Assembly (NCBI RefSeq): GCF_009827395.1
Contig: NZ_WTYX01000001.1
Coordinates: 336,001-400,000 of the forward strand
DNA: 64,000 bases
Direction: 5' to 3'
From: Pontixanthobacter aquaemixtae
GTDB lineage: Bacteria; Pseudomonadota; Alphaproteobacteria; Sphingomonadales; Sphingomonadaceae
Both the position numbers and the translations under genes were made by a program. Positions 25,157 to 29,008 of the stretch are shown one piece after another (position 1 is the stretch's first letter; each line of letters begins with the position of its first letter). The notes beneath the pieces were generated by a model, which did not search any database, was not told the origin of the DNA, and saw only the letters and a program-made list of their open reading frames with translations.

Positions 25157-25246
25157 AATGTACGTCATCCCAGCGAAGGCTGGGATCGCTATCGGCGGGT
25201 GCTTGATTTGAGACCGATCCCAGCCTTCGCTGGGATGACGTACATT
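25157..25246. repeat. Perfect 32-bp inverted repeat
   Basis: The arms 25157-25188 and 25215-25246 are exact reverse complements over 32 nt, with a 26-nt loop. The core is ATCCCAGC-gaag-GCTGGGAT type. The right arm touches the stop codon of the S9 peptidase gene (25245). It belongs to the same family as the element inside cobA (62755-62832). It probably forms a stable hairpin at the 3' end of the peptidase transcript. Confidence 0.9.
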
Positions 25247-27182
25247 AGGAAGCCATCGCCTCCTTCAATCCCTTCACATGCTCCGCGCCTTCGACCAGAT
25301 CGGCGGTCGAACCTTTTACGGTGTCGCCAATCGGTTCTGATCGTCCGCCAAGCCATTCGGCGAGGAAATTCTCGGTCACCGCGTTGAAAGCGATATTGTT
25401 GGCAGGATTGGCAAAACCGTGCCCTTCATCGGGGAACAGAACATATGTCACCGGAATGCCCGCGTCTTTCATCGCGCCGACAATCTGGTCGCTCTCCGCC
25501 TGGTTGACGCGCGGATCGTTCGCGCCTTGGCCGATCAGCAATGGGCGCACGATGTTACCCGCTGAATTGAGCGGGCTGCGCTCTTTGAGCATCGCCAACC
25601 CTTCGGGCGTGGCAGGATTGCCCATCCGTTCATGGAACTGCGCAATCATCGGTTCCCAATAGGGCGGTATCGTGGCCAGCAATGTCTCGAGATTGGATGG
25701 CCCGACAATGTCGACGCCGCAGGCAAAGACTTCGGGCGTGAATGTCAAACCGGCCAATGTCGCATAGCCGCCATAAGAACCGCCCATTATCGCGATCTTG
25801 TCTTCCTGTGCGATGCCCTCTTCGACTGCCCAGCGGACCGCATCAATCAAATCGTCATGCATCTTCTTGCCCCATTCGAGGTCGGCGGCGGAGATGAAAT
25901 CCTTGCCGAAGCCGGTGGAGCCGCGGAAATTGACGCTAAGCACCGCATAGCCGCGATTGGCGAGCCATTGGTGGTGCGAGTTGAACCCGTATTCATCGCG
26001 CGCCCAAGGGCCGCCATGAACCAGCAGAACCATCGGAACAGGGCCTTCTGCATCGCCCGGGACGGTCAGGTAAGAGGGCAGGGTGAGGCCATCACGCGCT
26101 TTCAATTCCAGCGTCTGCATCGGTTGTAATGGTGCACCGACAAGTTCCGGTCTACCCGTGTAGAATTCGGCCAGAGTCTCCGCATTCCGGTCATAGATGA
26201 AGGTTTGCGCTGGCGCGGTTAGAGGATCATTCCAGACGATCCAGGTCTGGTCATCTTCGGTCCGGCTGGAAACGCCGAAATCGCCCTCCAATTGCTTGCC
26301 GAGCCAGTCGAGCGAGGCACCGATGTCAGGATCGGTCGCGGTCCATTCGGCGGTCAGATAGGTGAAGGAATATGCCTGCACTTCGCCGGTTTTGGGGTGC
26401 CCCATAACGCCGCCGATATCGGCTTTTTCGTTCTGCGCGATCAAGGTGCGTTCGCCGGTCTGGGCATCCTGCGCGAAAAGCGCGGCGGTGTTACGTCCGC
26501 GGCTATCAATCCAGTACATGATCGAACCGTCGGTAGTCAAGCCCGCGGGCTGGGTGGTGAGCGAGTCCGCAAGATCGGTGCTGTCGCTAGGTTCTTCGGC
26601 GATCGCACCATCGACAATCGGGAAAAAGTCCATTCCGCCTGCCGCATTGGGGGCAACCGCAAGCCGCAGGTCCAGGTTATCATCCGCCATGAACCCGGCA
26701 TAGGCATCGTTCTGCTGGACCAGAGCCAGGTCCCCTGAATTGAGGTCGAGTAGATAGGCATCGTGAAACCGCGCATCGCGGTTGTTGAGGCCAATCAAAA
26801 TCCTGTCACGAATGGTTTCCGACGTGCCGATAATATCGACGCGGGTATTCTCGAAATCGGTCAGCGTGCGCTCTTTACCGGTGGCGATATCGACGCCGTA
26901 GAGCAGGAAGTTCTCGTCGCCACCTTTGTCCTGGATATAAAGCAGGCTCTTTGAATCCGGTGCCCAGAAATATTGCTGGATCGGCCGCTCACTCGCCGTT
27001 GTCATCGCCTTGCCGGAAGCCGGCTCTTCCACAGGTGCCATCCACACATTGAGCACGCCTTCGAGTGGAGCAAGCCAGCTTAACCATTTGCCATCGGGGC
27101 TGATTTGCCCGCCCGCTTTGGTTGGATTGCCAAACAGATGGTCGCGCGCGATCAGGGGGATGGGCGTGGTGGATGCTGGCAT
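25245..27182 (-). CDS. S9 family (prolyl oligopeptidase) peptidase
   Basis: The 645-residue product has an N-terminal beta-propeller (about 1-390) and a C-terminal alpha/beta-hydrolase domain. The catalytic Ser is in MGGSYGGYATLAG, the Asp in GANDPRVNQAES and the His in PDEGHGFANP. It cleaves short peptides, often after Pro or other residues. There is no signal peptide with the ATG at 27182; a TTG start 11 codons upstream does not create one. Its promoter region faces the peptide array starting at 27369. Lasso-peptide isopeptidases belong to the same superfamily but are exported, so any link to the array is speculative. Confidence 0.9.
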   Translation of the reverse strand: MPASTTPIPLIARDHLFGNPTKAGGQISPDGKWLSWLAPLEGVLNVWMAPVEEPASGKAMTTASERPIQQYFWAPDSKSLLYIQDKGGDENFLLYGVDIATGKERTLTDFENTRVDIIGTSETIRDRILIGLNNRDARFHDAYLLDLNSGDLALVQQNDAYAGFMADDNLDLRLAVAPNAAGGMDFFPIVDGAIAEEPSDSTDLADSLTTQPAGLTTDGSIMYWIDSRGRNTAALFAQDAQTGERTLIAQNEKADIGGVMGHPKTGEVQAYSFTYLTAEWTATDPDIGASLDWLGKQLEGDFGVSSRTEDDQTWIVWNDPLTAPAQTFIYDRNAETLAEFYTGRPELVGAPLQPMQTLELKARDGLTLPSYLTVPGDAEGPVPMVLLVHGGPWARDEYGFNSHHQWLANRGYAVLSVNFRGSTGFGKDFISAADLEWGKKMHDDLIDAVRWAVEEGIAQEDKIAIMGGSYGGYATLAGLTFTPEVFACGVDIVGPSNLETLLATIPPYWEPMIAQFHERMGNPATPEGLAMLKERSPLNSAGNIVRPLLIGQGANDPRVNQAESDQIVGAMKDAGIPVTYVLFPDEGHGFANPANNIAFNAVTENFLAEWLGGRSEPIGDTVKGSTADLVEGAEHVKGLKEAMAS

Positions 27183-27368
27183 GCGGCTATTTTCTCCGGG
27201 ATGTTTGTTCCGCAATTATGCGGCACTTTTCAAGTTCCCTGCAAGATAAGGTCGCACCCTTCCAAATTGAACAGCGGCAAGCAAAGAATTGTCTTTGCAC
27301 TTGTAATTGCAATTTCAGCCAAGTTGAGACATGGTAAGTGTAGTTGGCTAACGAAGAGGGAAAGATTC

Positions 27369-27509
27369 GTGACGATCAAAGAGAAAAAGCCGATTGTTTC
27401 AAGACGTTGGAGTAAGCCGGAAGTTACTGCAGTAACTCCGGTTCAGGAAACGCGCGGCGGATTCATCAAGAAACCGACGGTCGAGAACGTAGTTTATTAT
27501 CCGTCCTAA
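27369..27509 (+). CDS. RiPP-precursor-like peptide, array copy 1
   Basis: The 46-residue peptide starts with GTG, preceded by GAAGAGGG. The leader is polar and basic (TIKEKKPIVSRR) and contains WSKPEV, a W-x-x-P-x-V version of the aromatic-x-x-P-x-L recognition motif of lasso-peptide leaders. It then reads TAVTPVQETRG. The proposed core is GFIKKPTVENVVYYPS: Gly1, Glu9, and a tail with two Tyr. Gly1-Glu9 spacing would fit a nine-residue macrolactam ring. If the core starts at the second Gly, W, P and V fall at -17, -14 and -12, with Thr at -3. If it starts at the first Gly, Thr is at -2 but Glu at 10. Cleavage after GG is a further option. The gene is real (conserved RBS, four paralogues); the peptide class is inferred. 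Confidence 0.78.
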   Translation: MTIKEKKPIVSRRWSKPEVTAVTPVQETRGGFIKKPTVENVVYYPS

Positions 27510-27524
27510 GCAGACGGCCTCCGG

Positions 27525-27602
27525 CTAAAGCGCCGGATCGTCTTGCCAATACCTTGCGAGATCGCGGCCACATTGTGGGCGCGCGAGCAATTGTTTCGCC
27601 CC
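27525..27602 (-). pseudogene. Decayed copy of the DNA glycosylase 3' end (spacer 1)
   Basis: Read on the minus strand this spacer encodes a tail ending GRDLARYWQDDPAL and a stop. The intact glycosylase ends [16 protein letters not shown] and a stop. The phase, the stop position and the last codons (GAC-rAT-CCG-GC) agree, and each lies just past the 3' end of a peptide gene. It is therefore read as a duplicated 3' fragment of the 28391-29008 gene. Confidence 0.6.
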
Positions 27603-27650
27603 TGCTGTGGGGGGTGGTGTTATCTGTAGATCATCGAAGAGGGAAAATTC

Positions 27651-27791
27651 GTGACGATCAATGAGAAAAAGCCGGTTGTTCCAAAGCGTTGGAGCAAGCC
27701 TGAAGTTACTACGGTAACCCCGGTTCAGGACACGCGCGGTGGTCCCTTGACCGTCAATCCCATTGAGGCTGCATTTTATACGCCATCGTGA
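27651..27791 (+). CDS. RiPP-precursor-like peptide, array copy 2
   Basis: The 46-residue peptide starts with GTG. Its leader is almost identical to that of copy 1 (WSKPEVT kept, TVTPVQDTRG) but the C-terminal part is quite different: GPLTVNPIEAAFYTPS. The conserved leader with a variable C terminus is the hallmark of precursor peptides. Glu is again the ninth residue from the second Gly, and the tail again ends in aromatic residues plus PS. The RBS is GAAGAGGG. Confidence 0.78.
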   Translation: MTINEKKPVVPKRWSKPEVTTVTPVQDTRGGPLTVNPIEAAFYTPS

Positions 27792-27807
27792 GCTTCGAGA
27801 ACTGAGC

Positions 27808-27882
27808 CTAGAGCGCCGGATCGTCTTGCCAATACCTTGCAGGGCCGCGACCACATCGTGGGGGCGAGAGCAATAGTTTCGC
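27808..27882 (-). pseudogene. Decayed copy of the DNA glycosylase 3' end (spacer 2)
   Basis: The minus-strand reading ends RCGRGPARYWQDDPAL and TAG, matching spacer 1 closely and the intact glycosylase tail more distantly ([10 protein letters not shown] ... DNPAL). It lies 16 nt after the stop of copy 2, convergent with it, exactly as the intact glycosylase gene lies 12 nt after copy 4. Confidence 0.6.
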
Positions 27883-27933
27883 CCTTGCTGTGGGAATGGG
27901 TGTTATCTGTAGACCATCGAAGAGGGAAAATTC

Positions 27934-28074
27934 GTGTCTATCAAAGAGAAAAAGTTGATCGAATCGAAGCGTTGGACAAAGCTAAAAGTTACTGCGACAA
28001 CGCCGGTGAAGGCAGCCTGTGGCGGGTTCATTTATAGTCCATCGGTAGAGAATGCGGTTTACTATACGTCTTGA
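27934..28074 (+). CDS. RiPP-precursor-like peptide, array copy 3 (leader diverged)
   Basis: The 46-residue peptide starts with GTG and has the same RBS. The leader has lost key residues: WSKPEV is WTKLKV, and TRGG is ACGG (Thr and Arg lost, GG kept). The proposed core GFIYSPSVENAVYYTS is close to that of copy 1 and keeps Glu9 and the Tyr-Tyr tail. The frame is open, so it may still be made, but processing that depends on the P or the T would be impaired. It may be a decaying copy or one with changed specificity. Confidence 0.68.
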   Translation: MSIKEKKLIESKRWTKLKVTATTPVKAACGGFIYSPSVENAVYYTS

Positions 28075-28088
28075 GCTGTATTCTTCCG

Positions 28089-28122
28089 GCAAGAGCACCG
28101 GATTAACACAGAATCGCGAGCG
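28089..28122 (-). pseudogene. Short remnant of the DNA glycosylase 3' end (spacer 3)
   Basis: The plus-strand stretch from GCAAGAGCACCGGATTAAC to AATCGCGAGCG matches in order the block at the intact gene end (CAAAGCCGGATTG ... GATCGCGAGCG, 28395-28433). It is more decayed than spacers 1 and 2, with a deletion in the middle. The position after a peptide gene stop is the same. Confidence 0.45.
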
Positions 28123-28204
28123 AATGGTGCGTGTGCGAACGCTTACGCTCGACATTGTTTTCGATCAAAAGAGCTTGAAATTTCAATTGAAGAGGGACAA
28201 TTTT

Positions 28205-28378
28205 ATGCCAGATAAAGATTTTGAGGCAGTGAGTTTGACGCGCAATTCCGTCGCACCTGCCCCTAAGAAGGTTTGGGCGAAGCCAATTGTAGAGCGCACT
28301 GCGGCGGTCAGCCGCACCAGAGGTGGTATTGTCAAGGGTACACCGAAAGAAGCAGGATTTGTTTACGCCATGTCGTGA
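28205..28378 (+). CDS. RiPP-precursor-like peptide, array copy 4 (longer, divergent)
   Basis: The 57-residue peptide starts with ATG after GAAGAGGG. Its N-terminal 20 residues are unlike copies 1-3, but the recognition block is kept (VWAKPIV, then SRTRG). The proposed core is GIVKGTPKEAGFVYAMS: Gly1, Glu9, aromatic residues in the tail, final Ser. It adjoins the intact DNA glycosylase gene, 12 nt away and convergent, so it may represent the ancestral unit of the array. Conservation of W-x-K-P-x-V, TRGG and Glu9 in a copy this diverged argues for selection on these positions. Confidence 0.74.
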   Translation: MPDKDFEAVSLTRNSVAPAPKKVWAKPIVERTAAVSRTRGGIVKGTPKEAGFVYAMS

Positions 28379-28390
28379 TCGGGAACGGCC

Positions 28391-29008
28391 TTACAAAGCC
28401 GGATTGTCATAACAATGCCAACTAAAGATCGCGAGCGCGCCGCGATGCGGGCTGTAAGGCGCGGCAAGTACGCGCGCGTGTTTTTCTGATGGCCTCTCGG
28501 GCAATTCCATAATCTTGTGCATGGCCGCTTGTACGGCCAGATCGCCTGCGGGGAAGATGTCTGCGCGTCCTTCTGCGAAGAGCAGGTAAATCTCGGCAGA
28601 CCAGCGCCCGATGCCTTTGATTTTGGTCAGCTCGGCAATCGCCTCCTCATCATCGGCGGGAAGATTATCAAGCTGTAACTCCTCGCTGACAACCAGCTCG
28701 CACAAAGAGCGGGCATAGCCTTGCTTTTGGCGCGACAGGCCGCAAGCACGCAGGGCATCGAAATCCCGCGACAGCAATTCATCGGGGGCGATGTCCTCTC
28801 CCAATTCAATTTCCAGCTTGTTCCAAACAGAAGATGCCGCGGCGACGCTGACCTGTTGCCCGACAATGGTGCGCAGCAGCGTGCGATAGCCGGTCGGGCG
28901 AATGCGCGGCTCGGGATATCCGCAGGCTTTCAGCGCTTCACCAAAGGCAGGATCGACGGAGGCTGCGTGGTCCACCCCTTGCTTGATCTGATCCTTCGTT
29001 AAGCCCAT
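28391..29008 (-). CDS. alkA: DNA-3-methyladenine glycosylase II (AlkA/HhH-GPD family)
   Basis: The 205-residue product removes alkylated bases from DNA. The helix-hairpin-helix is [16 protein letters not shown] (about 127-142), and the catalytic Asp is Asp156 in FPAGDLAVQ. The N-terminal helical motif [14 protein letters not shown] is typical. It is the short form without the extra N-terminal domain of E. coli AlkA. Its last roughly 25 codons appear as decayed duplicates in the peptide-array spacers. Confidence 0.9.

Follow-up and report, generated by a model that had tools for sequence, protein, structure and literature searches.

Lasso peptide precursors are usually located by genome mining beside the genes of their processing enzymes. 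In the phosphorylated lasso peptides paeninodin, SyanA, pseudomycoidin and bsf, the B2 and other lasso-type genes are accompanied by an HprK-like kinase gene, and the C-terminal Ser is phosphorylated in most of these peptides, with Ser3 being modified in bsf (PMC10368454, PMC8498205, PMC9266682 and PMC4289311). A nucleotidyltransferase is also encoded in the pseudomycoidin and bsf clusters (PMC10368454, PMC8498205, PMC9266682, PMC4289311), and an FG-GAP protein borders the bsf cluster (PMC10368454). For caulosegnins I-III, one enzyme set handles several precursors, all encoded within the cluster, and yields rings of 8 and 9 residues (PMC13352647). A part of the pathway lies outside the cluster in citrulassin, a lasso pathway with the tailoring enzyme PAD encoded elsewhere (PMC12971885), and in heterocycloanthracin, a ribosomally synthesized and post-translationally modified peptide (RiPP) of the thiazole/oxazole type made by other enzymes and not a lasso peptide, the precursor of which is found away from the cyclodehydratase context in most Bacillus cereus clusters (PMC4603692). 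Among the matches listed in a search of the open-licence literature, neither lasso precursors far from their cluster nor lasso rings of 10 residues were described.

Here we describe an array of four short genes that encode likely lasso precursors in a 64,000-nucleotide stretch of the Pontixanthobacter aquaemixtae genome (contig NZ_WTYX01000001.1, positions 336,001 to 400,000; hereafter the window, meaning the whole stretch). The sole matching enzymes that we found are encoded about 1.35 Mb from the array, and therefore one enzyme set appears to serve scattered groups of precursors. We consider it likely that the array consists of satellite lasso-precursor genes served in trans by this one remote set, and the whole is probably a lasso-type, phosphorylated RiPP system with dispersed precursor genes. 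It differs from the phosphorylated systems above in that most precursors lie outside the cluster, in that the cluster has in addition two sulfotransferases, an Asp/Arg-hydroxylase-like protein, a GT8 protein and an FG-GAP/permease-like protein, and in that about half of the peptides have a longer spacing between the leader Thr and the acidic residue (beyond position 9 in 13 of 27, counting with Thr at -2). Unlike the caulosegnin precursors, 18 of the 28 precursors here are remote and the range of spacings is wider, and unlike in citrulassin the remote part is a set of substrate genes. Heterocycloanthracin is the nearest organisational precedent found, in another RiPP class.

The array peptides and the remote enzyme cluster

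The four tandem genes (Table 1) share one ribosome-binding sequence, GAAGAGGGA, 6-7 bases upstream of each start codon, as the initial annotation had stated, and its description of the leaders was also correct: copies 1, 2 and 4 carry W-x-K-P-x-V ... T-R-G-G, and copy 3 has the diverged form W-T-K-L-K-V ... A-C-G-G, in which T-R has become A-C and the motif Pro a Leu. In all four copies Glu is the ninth residue from the second Gly (the tenth from the first) and the C-terminal residue is Ser. When the genome was searched with copy 1, copies 2 and 3 were matched with E values of 2.3e-13 and 8.0e-13 and copy 4 only weakly (E 0.037); copy 4 reached 3.3e-18 with a profile of the eight precursors of the genome, in which it is itself included. 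Judged from these alignments, the mutual similarity of the copies is beyond chance. No NCBIfam model matches the four peptides and no Pfam model covers them, there being one below-cut-off line for copy 3 alone. Copy 3, which has lost the Thr of its leader and the Pro of the motif and whose core is still near that of copy 1, offers a natural test of the leader residues.

Table 1. Features of the array site, and one protein of the remote cluster region L009 (window positions, except for the entry prefixed L009)
Feature	Position	Strand	Remarks
Precursor copy 1	27369-27509	+	46 aa, GTG start; core GGFIKKPTVENVVYYPS
Precursor copy 2	27651-27791	+	46 aa, GTG start; core GGPLTVNPIEAAFYTPS
Precursor copy 3	27934-28074	+	46 aa, GTG start; core GGFIYSPSVENAVYYTS
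Precursor copy 4	28205-28378	+	57 aa, ATG start, longer N terminus; core GGIVKGTPKEAGFVYAMS
Spacer after copy 1	27510-27650	+	duplicated spacer, first member
Spacer after copy 2	27792-27933	+	duplicated spacer, second member
S9-family peptidase (PF00326)	25245-27179	-	one border of array site
HhH-GPD base-excision glycosylase (PF00730)	28391-29008	-	other border of array site
FG-GAP + UnbV_ASPIC protein	L009:9877-13095	-	about 1070 aa; N-terminal ArsP_1 permease match below cut-off

The search with copy 1 also matched two other places on the same contig, at 1.723 Mb and 1.353 Mb. The first falls in a lasso-type cluster (L009), and at the second (L008) three precursors adjoin a bamD-like gene; with one precursor in the cluster and four in the window, the genome has eight. 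The usual, though not strictly necessary, arrangement, a precursor gene beside B and C, holds for the cluster's own precursor and not for the array. PF13471, the lasso B2 family, has a single match in the genome (66.7 bits), as has PqqD (PF05402), the family of B1 or RiPP recognition element proteins (70.7 bits, cut-off 23.4), and the B1 gene adjoins the cluster precursor at a distance of 5 kb from B2. The B2 protein (Transglut_core3) passes the NCBIfam model lasso_biosyn_B2 (61.4 bits, cut-off 33), and one Cys and one His, which we take to be catalytic, are invariant across 12 aligned B2 sequences. The C protein contains GATase and Asn_synthase (PF00733) domains, and among the NCBIfam models it matches one for a lasso cyclase best. 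The RiPP enzyme families searched were PF13471, PqqD, PF00733 and PF03412, others, e.g. radical SAM, not being included. For the lasso families the window had no match, the single PF13471, the single PqqD and all seven PF00733 places lying outside it. Likewise, no match to PF13471, PF00733 or PqqD was found at the L008 precursor site.

The cluster precursor aligns throughout with the array peptides, with which it has in common the W-x-K-P-x-V motif, the Thr at W+14, the acidic residue and the Y-x-x-S end. The resemblance to lasso precursors pointed out in the initial annotation is therefore well supported by a B2/B1/C cluster whose precursor carries the same leader and tail motifs, and the genome search for lasso B and C proteins that it proposed did find B2, B1 and a cyclase-like C together. 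Its statement that biosynthetic genes are missing from the neighbourhood is right for the window, as far as the tested lasso and C39 families go, but not for the genome as a whole, and a new precursor class is unsupported, because the array peptides and the cluster-borne precursor are one family.

Region L009 also encodes a nucleotidyltransferase (PF14907), a Sulfotransfer_3 protein, a Sulfotransfer_1 protein containing a Y-P-K-S-G-N-T-W stretch, an Asp/Arg-hydroxylase-like protein, a GT8 protein, an FG-GAP/UnbV protein with a weak permease match, and an HprK-like kinase. The kinase matches Hpr_kinase_C weakly (19.4 bits, cut-off 33.3), and its residues H111, K132, D149 and D150, which are invariant in 11 homologues, fit by our own mapping the reported catalytic His-Lys-Asp-Asp (PMC9266682).

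Precursors and clusters in related genomes

We found that the profile of eight precursors matched 7 of 199 family genomes and 7 of 8 genomes of the genus, and that PF13471 is present in all seven of the matching family genomes, as against 86 of the 199 overall (p 0.002). A 27-row precursor profile matched 14 of 397 family genomes, 12 of them at E ≤ 1e-10, and homologues of the cluster kinase were present in 94 of the 397 at E ≤ 1e-10 and in 12 at E ≤ 1e-50. The 12 genomes with strong precursor matches (E ≤ 1e-10) are the same as the 12 with close relatives of the kinase (E ≤ 1e-50). Both thresholds were chosen after the lists had been seen, at gaps of 4e-11 to 1.5e-5 for the precursor and 6e-52 to 1.5e-40 for the kinase, and 11 of the 12 genomes had given rows to the precursor profile, G376 being the new find (G000 is the genome studied here and the other G numbers are relatives). 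A Fisher test on this co-occurrence gave 4e-23, a figure whose true weight is much less, because the 12 genomes come from four genera and are not independent events. A weaker match, in G011, is a precursor-like peptide (L112, G011:C24, near 416.9 kb) located about 3.3 kb from a PF13471 gene, with an Asn at its end and an Asp in its core; this weakly related peptide is probably an ordinary clustered lasso precursor.

The 12 genomes contain 28 precursors, 10 within clusters and 18 remote, the latter distributed as seven in G000, four in G201, three in G202, two in G044 and one each in G199 and G015; the remote status of the G202 copies rests on their neighbouring genes, because that assembly is fragmentary. 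The array site itself is syntenic. Between the S9 peptidase and HhH glycosylase genes, four precursors were present in G000, four in G201, two in G202 and one each in G199 and G015, so that the site is common to five genomes of two genera, G015 belonging to the other genus. No precursor was detected in the same gap of G120, G200, G179, G037, G104, G166, G376 and G044, and in these eight genomes the aligned gene ends are 93-335 bases apart, compared with 1215 in the window. The bamD-like site with precursors is common to G000 and G202. The remote pair of G044 (L088:4460-5136) occupies a separate genomic place, beside open reading frames (ORFs) resembling purQ and a malate synthase gene, and has Glu just 8 residues after T-x.

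We compared the cluster regions of 11 cluster-bearing relatives and of G037, two of the regions being cut: the G202 contig ends inside C and the G104 region ends inside the hydroxylase-like gene. B2, B1, the kinase, the hydroxylase-like gene, Sulfotransfer_1 and C were found in the clusters of all 11 relatives. GT8 was present in 10 (the G202 contig stops before its place), Sulfotransfer_3 in 9 (not in G179, and beyond the region end in G104), the FG-GAP gene in 9 (none in G376 at the threshold used; G202 cut) and the nucleotidyltransferase gene N in 8 (not in the regions of G179, G015 and G104). The FG-GAP/UnbV_ASPIC protein, which has homologues in L082, L083, L084, L087, L089, L091, L092, L094 and L096, may have a function in the pathway. 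An ABC transporter occurs in 7 of the 11 regions and in G037, the G044 protein being just 31% identical, and is not found in the regions of G179, G015, G104 and G166. It lies between N and the first sulfotransferase in L082, L092, L094, L096 and L099 and is absent from L009, despite the eight precursors of this genome, the largest number found.

The congener G201 has a cluster in which the B2, B1, kinase and C genes each align in one uninterrupted stretch. No precursor was detected in it, either by a no-filter hidden Markov model (HMM) search of the 19 kb region or by a motif scan of small ORFs (L096:900-11500), and the only precursors found genome-wide are four satellite copies about 1.2 Mb from the cluster. 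The G202 cluster is likewise without a detected precursor. If they make any product of this precursor family, the G201 and G202 clusters must act in trans. With 18 of 28 precursors located elsewhere and one complete-looking cluster without a detectable precursor, mining based on gene neighbourhood could call such a cluster empty and miss most of its products. By contrast with the other regions, that of G037 (L100, G037:C11:46000-65000) keeps B2, N and the ABC transporter but lacks B1, C, the kinase and a sulfotransferase, B1 and C not having been sought in the rest of that genome; G037 has no precursor match and only weak kinase matches elsewhere, and L100 is apparently a remnant cluster.

The distance of 1.35 Mb along the contig, together with a search confined to named RiPP enzyme families, would leave room for a different, unrecognised enzyme set serving the array, its likeness to the cluster precursor being merely historical. 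We regard this as extremely unlikely in view of the 12/12 co-occurrence with the cluster kinase, of G037, which has neither a precursor match nor a close kinase, and of the G201 cluster, in which no precursor is detectable.

Cleavage register, ring size and tail

A leader motif W-x-x-P-x-V/I/L is present in 27 of the 28 peptides, the exception being array copy 3 with L for P; the reference lasso leader motif is YxxPxL (PMC10368454). Position W+14 is occupied by Thr in 27 peptides of the 28. Glu lies 8 residues after T-x in 2 peptides, 9 in 12, 10 in 11 and 11 in 2, and the remaining one has only Asp; in all 28 a Tyr follows the acidic residue, and the tail after Glu is 6-8 residues long. Thus Gly-x7-Glu, which the initial annotation took as invariant, is true of the four window copies and not of the family, and in the alignment of homologues that it suggested, the acidic residue is kept in 28/28 while the spacing varies and the GG at the leader end is retained in just 20 (AG in four; AA, GA, SG and SA in one each).

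The same GG pair, which ends the leader in all four window copies, had led to the proposal of C39-type cleavage, that is, of bacteriocin-like double-glycine peptides for which a C39 peptidase-transporter carries out both cleavage and export. Against this stand the incomplete retention of GG in the family and a search for PF03412 that was positive in 8 of 14 control genomes and gave no match in this genome's assembly. C39 processing was rejected on the latter result, and its probability is negligible.

Reported lasso rings have 7-9 residues (PMC8498205, PMC10368454). With a cut after T-x (Thr at -2), 14 of 27 rings would be within this range, and the first core residue would be Gly in 21, Ala in 5 and Ser in 2 of the 28 peptides; with a cut after T-x-x (Thr at -3), the numbers would be 25 of 27 rings and Gly in 25 and Ala in 3. 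Ring sizes across the family would accordingly span 7-10 or 8-11 residues, depending on the register. Because 25 of 27 rings then fall within the reported range, Thr at -3, as envisaged in the initial annotation, appears the simpler reading for most peptides from their sequences, although 14 peptides would also fit the canonical register.

The last residue is Ser in all 28 precursors, and a Tyr lies three residues before it in 27 and two before it in the G179 peptide. In paeninodin and in the Sphingobium yanoikuyae precursor, the kinase phosphorylates the C-terminal Ser, probably on the linear precursor (PMC8498205, PMC9266682), and the bsf kinase acts on Ser3 (PMC10368454). Sulfotransferases near some lasso clusters have been noted as having no known role (PMC8498205, PMC4289311). 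Here, the conserved Tyr and the two cluster sulfotransferases suggest Tyr sulfation of the tail, a guess from co-occurrence.

From homology, a path for the array peptides may be proposed. The W-x-K-P-x-V motif of the leader would be bound by the remote PqqD-like B1. Cleavage near T-R-G-G would be the task of the B2 cysteine peptidase, and the lasso-cyclase-like C would link the freed N terminus and the side chain of Glu, closing a ring about a tail that bears an aromatic plug. Phosphorylation of the invariant terminal Ser would fall to the HprK-like kinase, with the linear precursor as its probable substrate, and further groups may come from the nucleotidyltransferase, the GT8 protein, the sulfotransferases and the hydroxylase-like protein. 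One enzyme set would thus feed on precursors from three places, one from the cluster, four from the window and three from the bamD-like site. In its strongest form, which we hold to be unlikely, the system would be one lasso machine with a dispersed, fast-changing precursor library, rings of unusual and variable size, reaching 10 or 11 residues should the cut come after Thr-x as in canonical leaders, and both a Ser phosphate and a Tyr sulfate. Interbacterial antagonism or signalling would be the ordinary expectation for such products. The system offers a natural case of enzymes apparently tolerant of many remote cores, and it makes testable which cut B2 chooses, which ring sizes C accepts and what sulfotransferases do at phosphorylated-lasso clusters.

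Several observations weigh against the processing of the array by the remote cluster. B1 and C fall below the cut-offs of the NCBIfam models lasso_PqqD_Bac (64 of 80 bits) and lasso cyclase subfamily (245 of 525 bits), respectively, and because of the latter the cyclase function is taken from the Asn-synthase and GATase domains and the context. No single cleavage register brings every peptide into the known 7-9 range; copy 3, without the leader Thr and Pro, may be processed poorly; and the cluster region of this genome lacks the type of ABC transporter found in eight relatives. In G201, the cluster may hold a precursor that has diverged beyond the reach of the HMM and motif scans, and in G202 the contig ends inside C in an assembly that is 77% complete. 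G275 has a weak precursor match (1.5e-5) with no listed kinase match, and in G011 both the precursor match (7.4e-4) and the kinase match (3.9e-26) are weak. Finally, a promoter scan returned 0 promoter-like sites, the scan not being informative for this organism.

The low scores of B1 and C, the short tails after Glu, the variable position of the acidic residue and the richness of the cluster in tailoring genes would also fit a product that is an unthreaded macrolactam or merely a phosphorylated or sulfated linear RiPP, with the array still a substrate but no true lasso formed. This we judge quite unlikely, as B2 passes the cut-off of the NCBIfam lasso B2 equivalog-domain model and the acidic residue is kept throughout, as Glu in 27 peptides and as Asp in one, with a Tyr after it in every case.

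Duplication within the array and its borders

A unit of about 282 bases has been duplicated in tandem, and spacers 1 and 2 agree at 116 of 141 aligned bases (82.3%). For copies 1 and 2, DNA identity is 87.4% in the leader (76/87) and 46.3% in the core (25/54), the core differing from both the spacer (p = 1.6e-6) and the leader (p = 2.6e-7). The leader of copy 1 is nearest to that of copy 2, and its core is nearest to that of copy 3 (70.4%). From these few bases of one genome, the array looks like a mosaic produced by duplication and exchange. The leader of copies 1 and 2 is under constraint, with nonsynonymous (dN) and synonymous (dS) divergences of 0.10 and 0.29 over few sites; core dN/dS values of three copy pairs were left unused, dS being near or at saturation.

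It may be asked whether the satellite copies are decaying duplicates that are no longer processed, as the loss of the leader Thr and Pro in copy 3 and the range of 0 to 4 copies at the array site might indicate. This seems very unlikely: all four copies have intact ORFs and the ribosome-binding sequence, the leader is constrained, the terminal Ser and the Glu are kept in 28 and 27 of the 28 peptides, respectively, and the only precursors detected in G201 are satellite copies.

A terminator scan gave 5 terminator-like sites as against 1.4 in shuffles, and the scan is uninformative. The S9 peptidase gene bordering the array was found in all 12 other genomes searched, including G037, which has no precursor match, and is partial at a contig end in G202. 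We also considered this peptidase as a lasso isopeptidase of the AtxE2 type and rejected it, because its score with NF033523 is far below the cut-off (66.4 bits vs 400) and because the gene is also present in G037.

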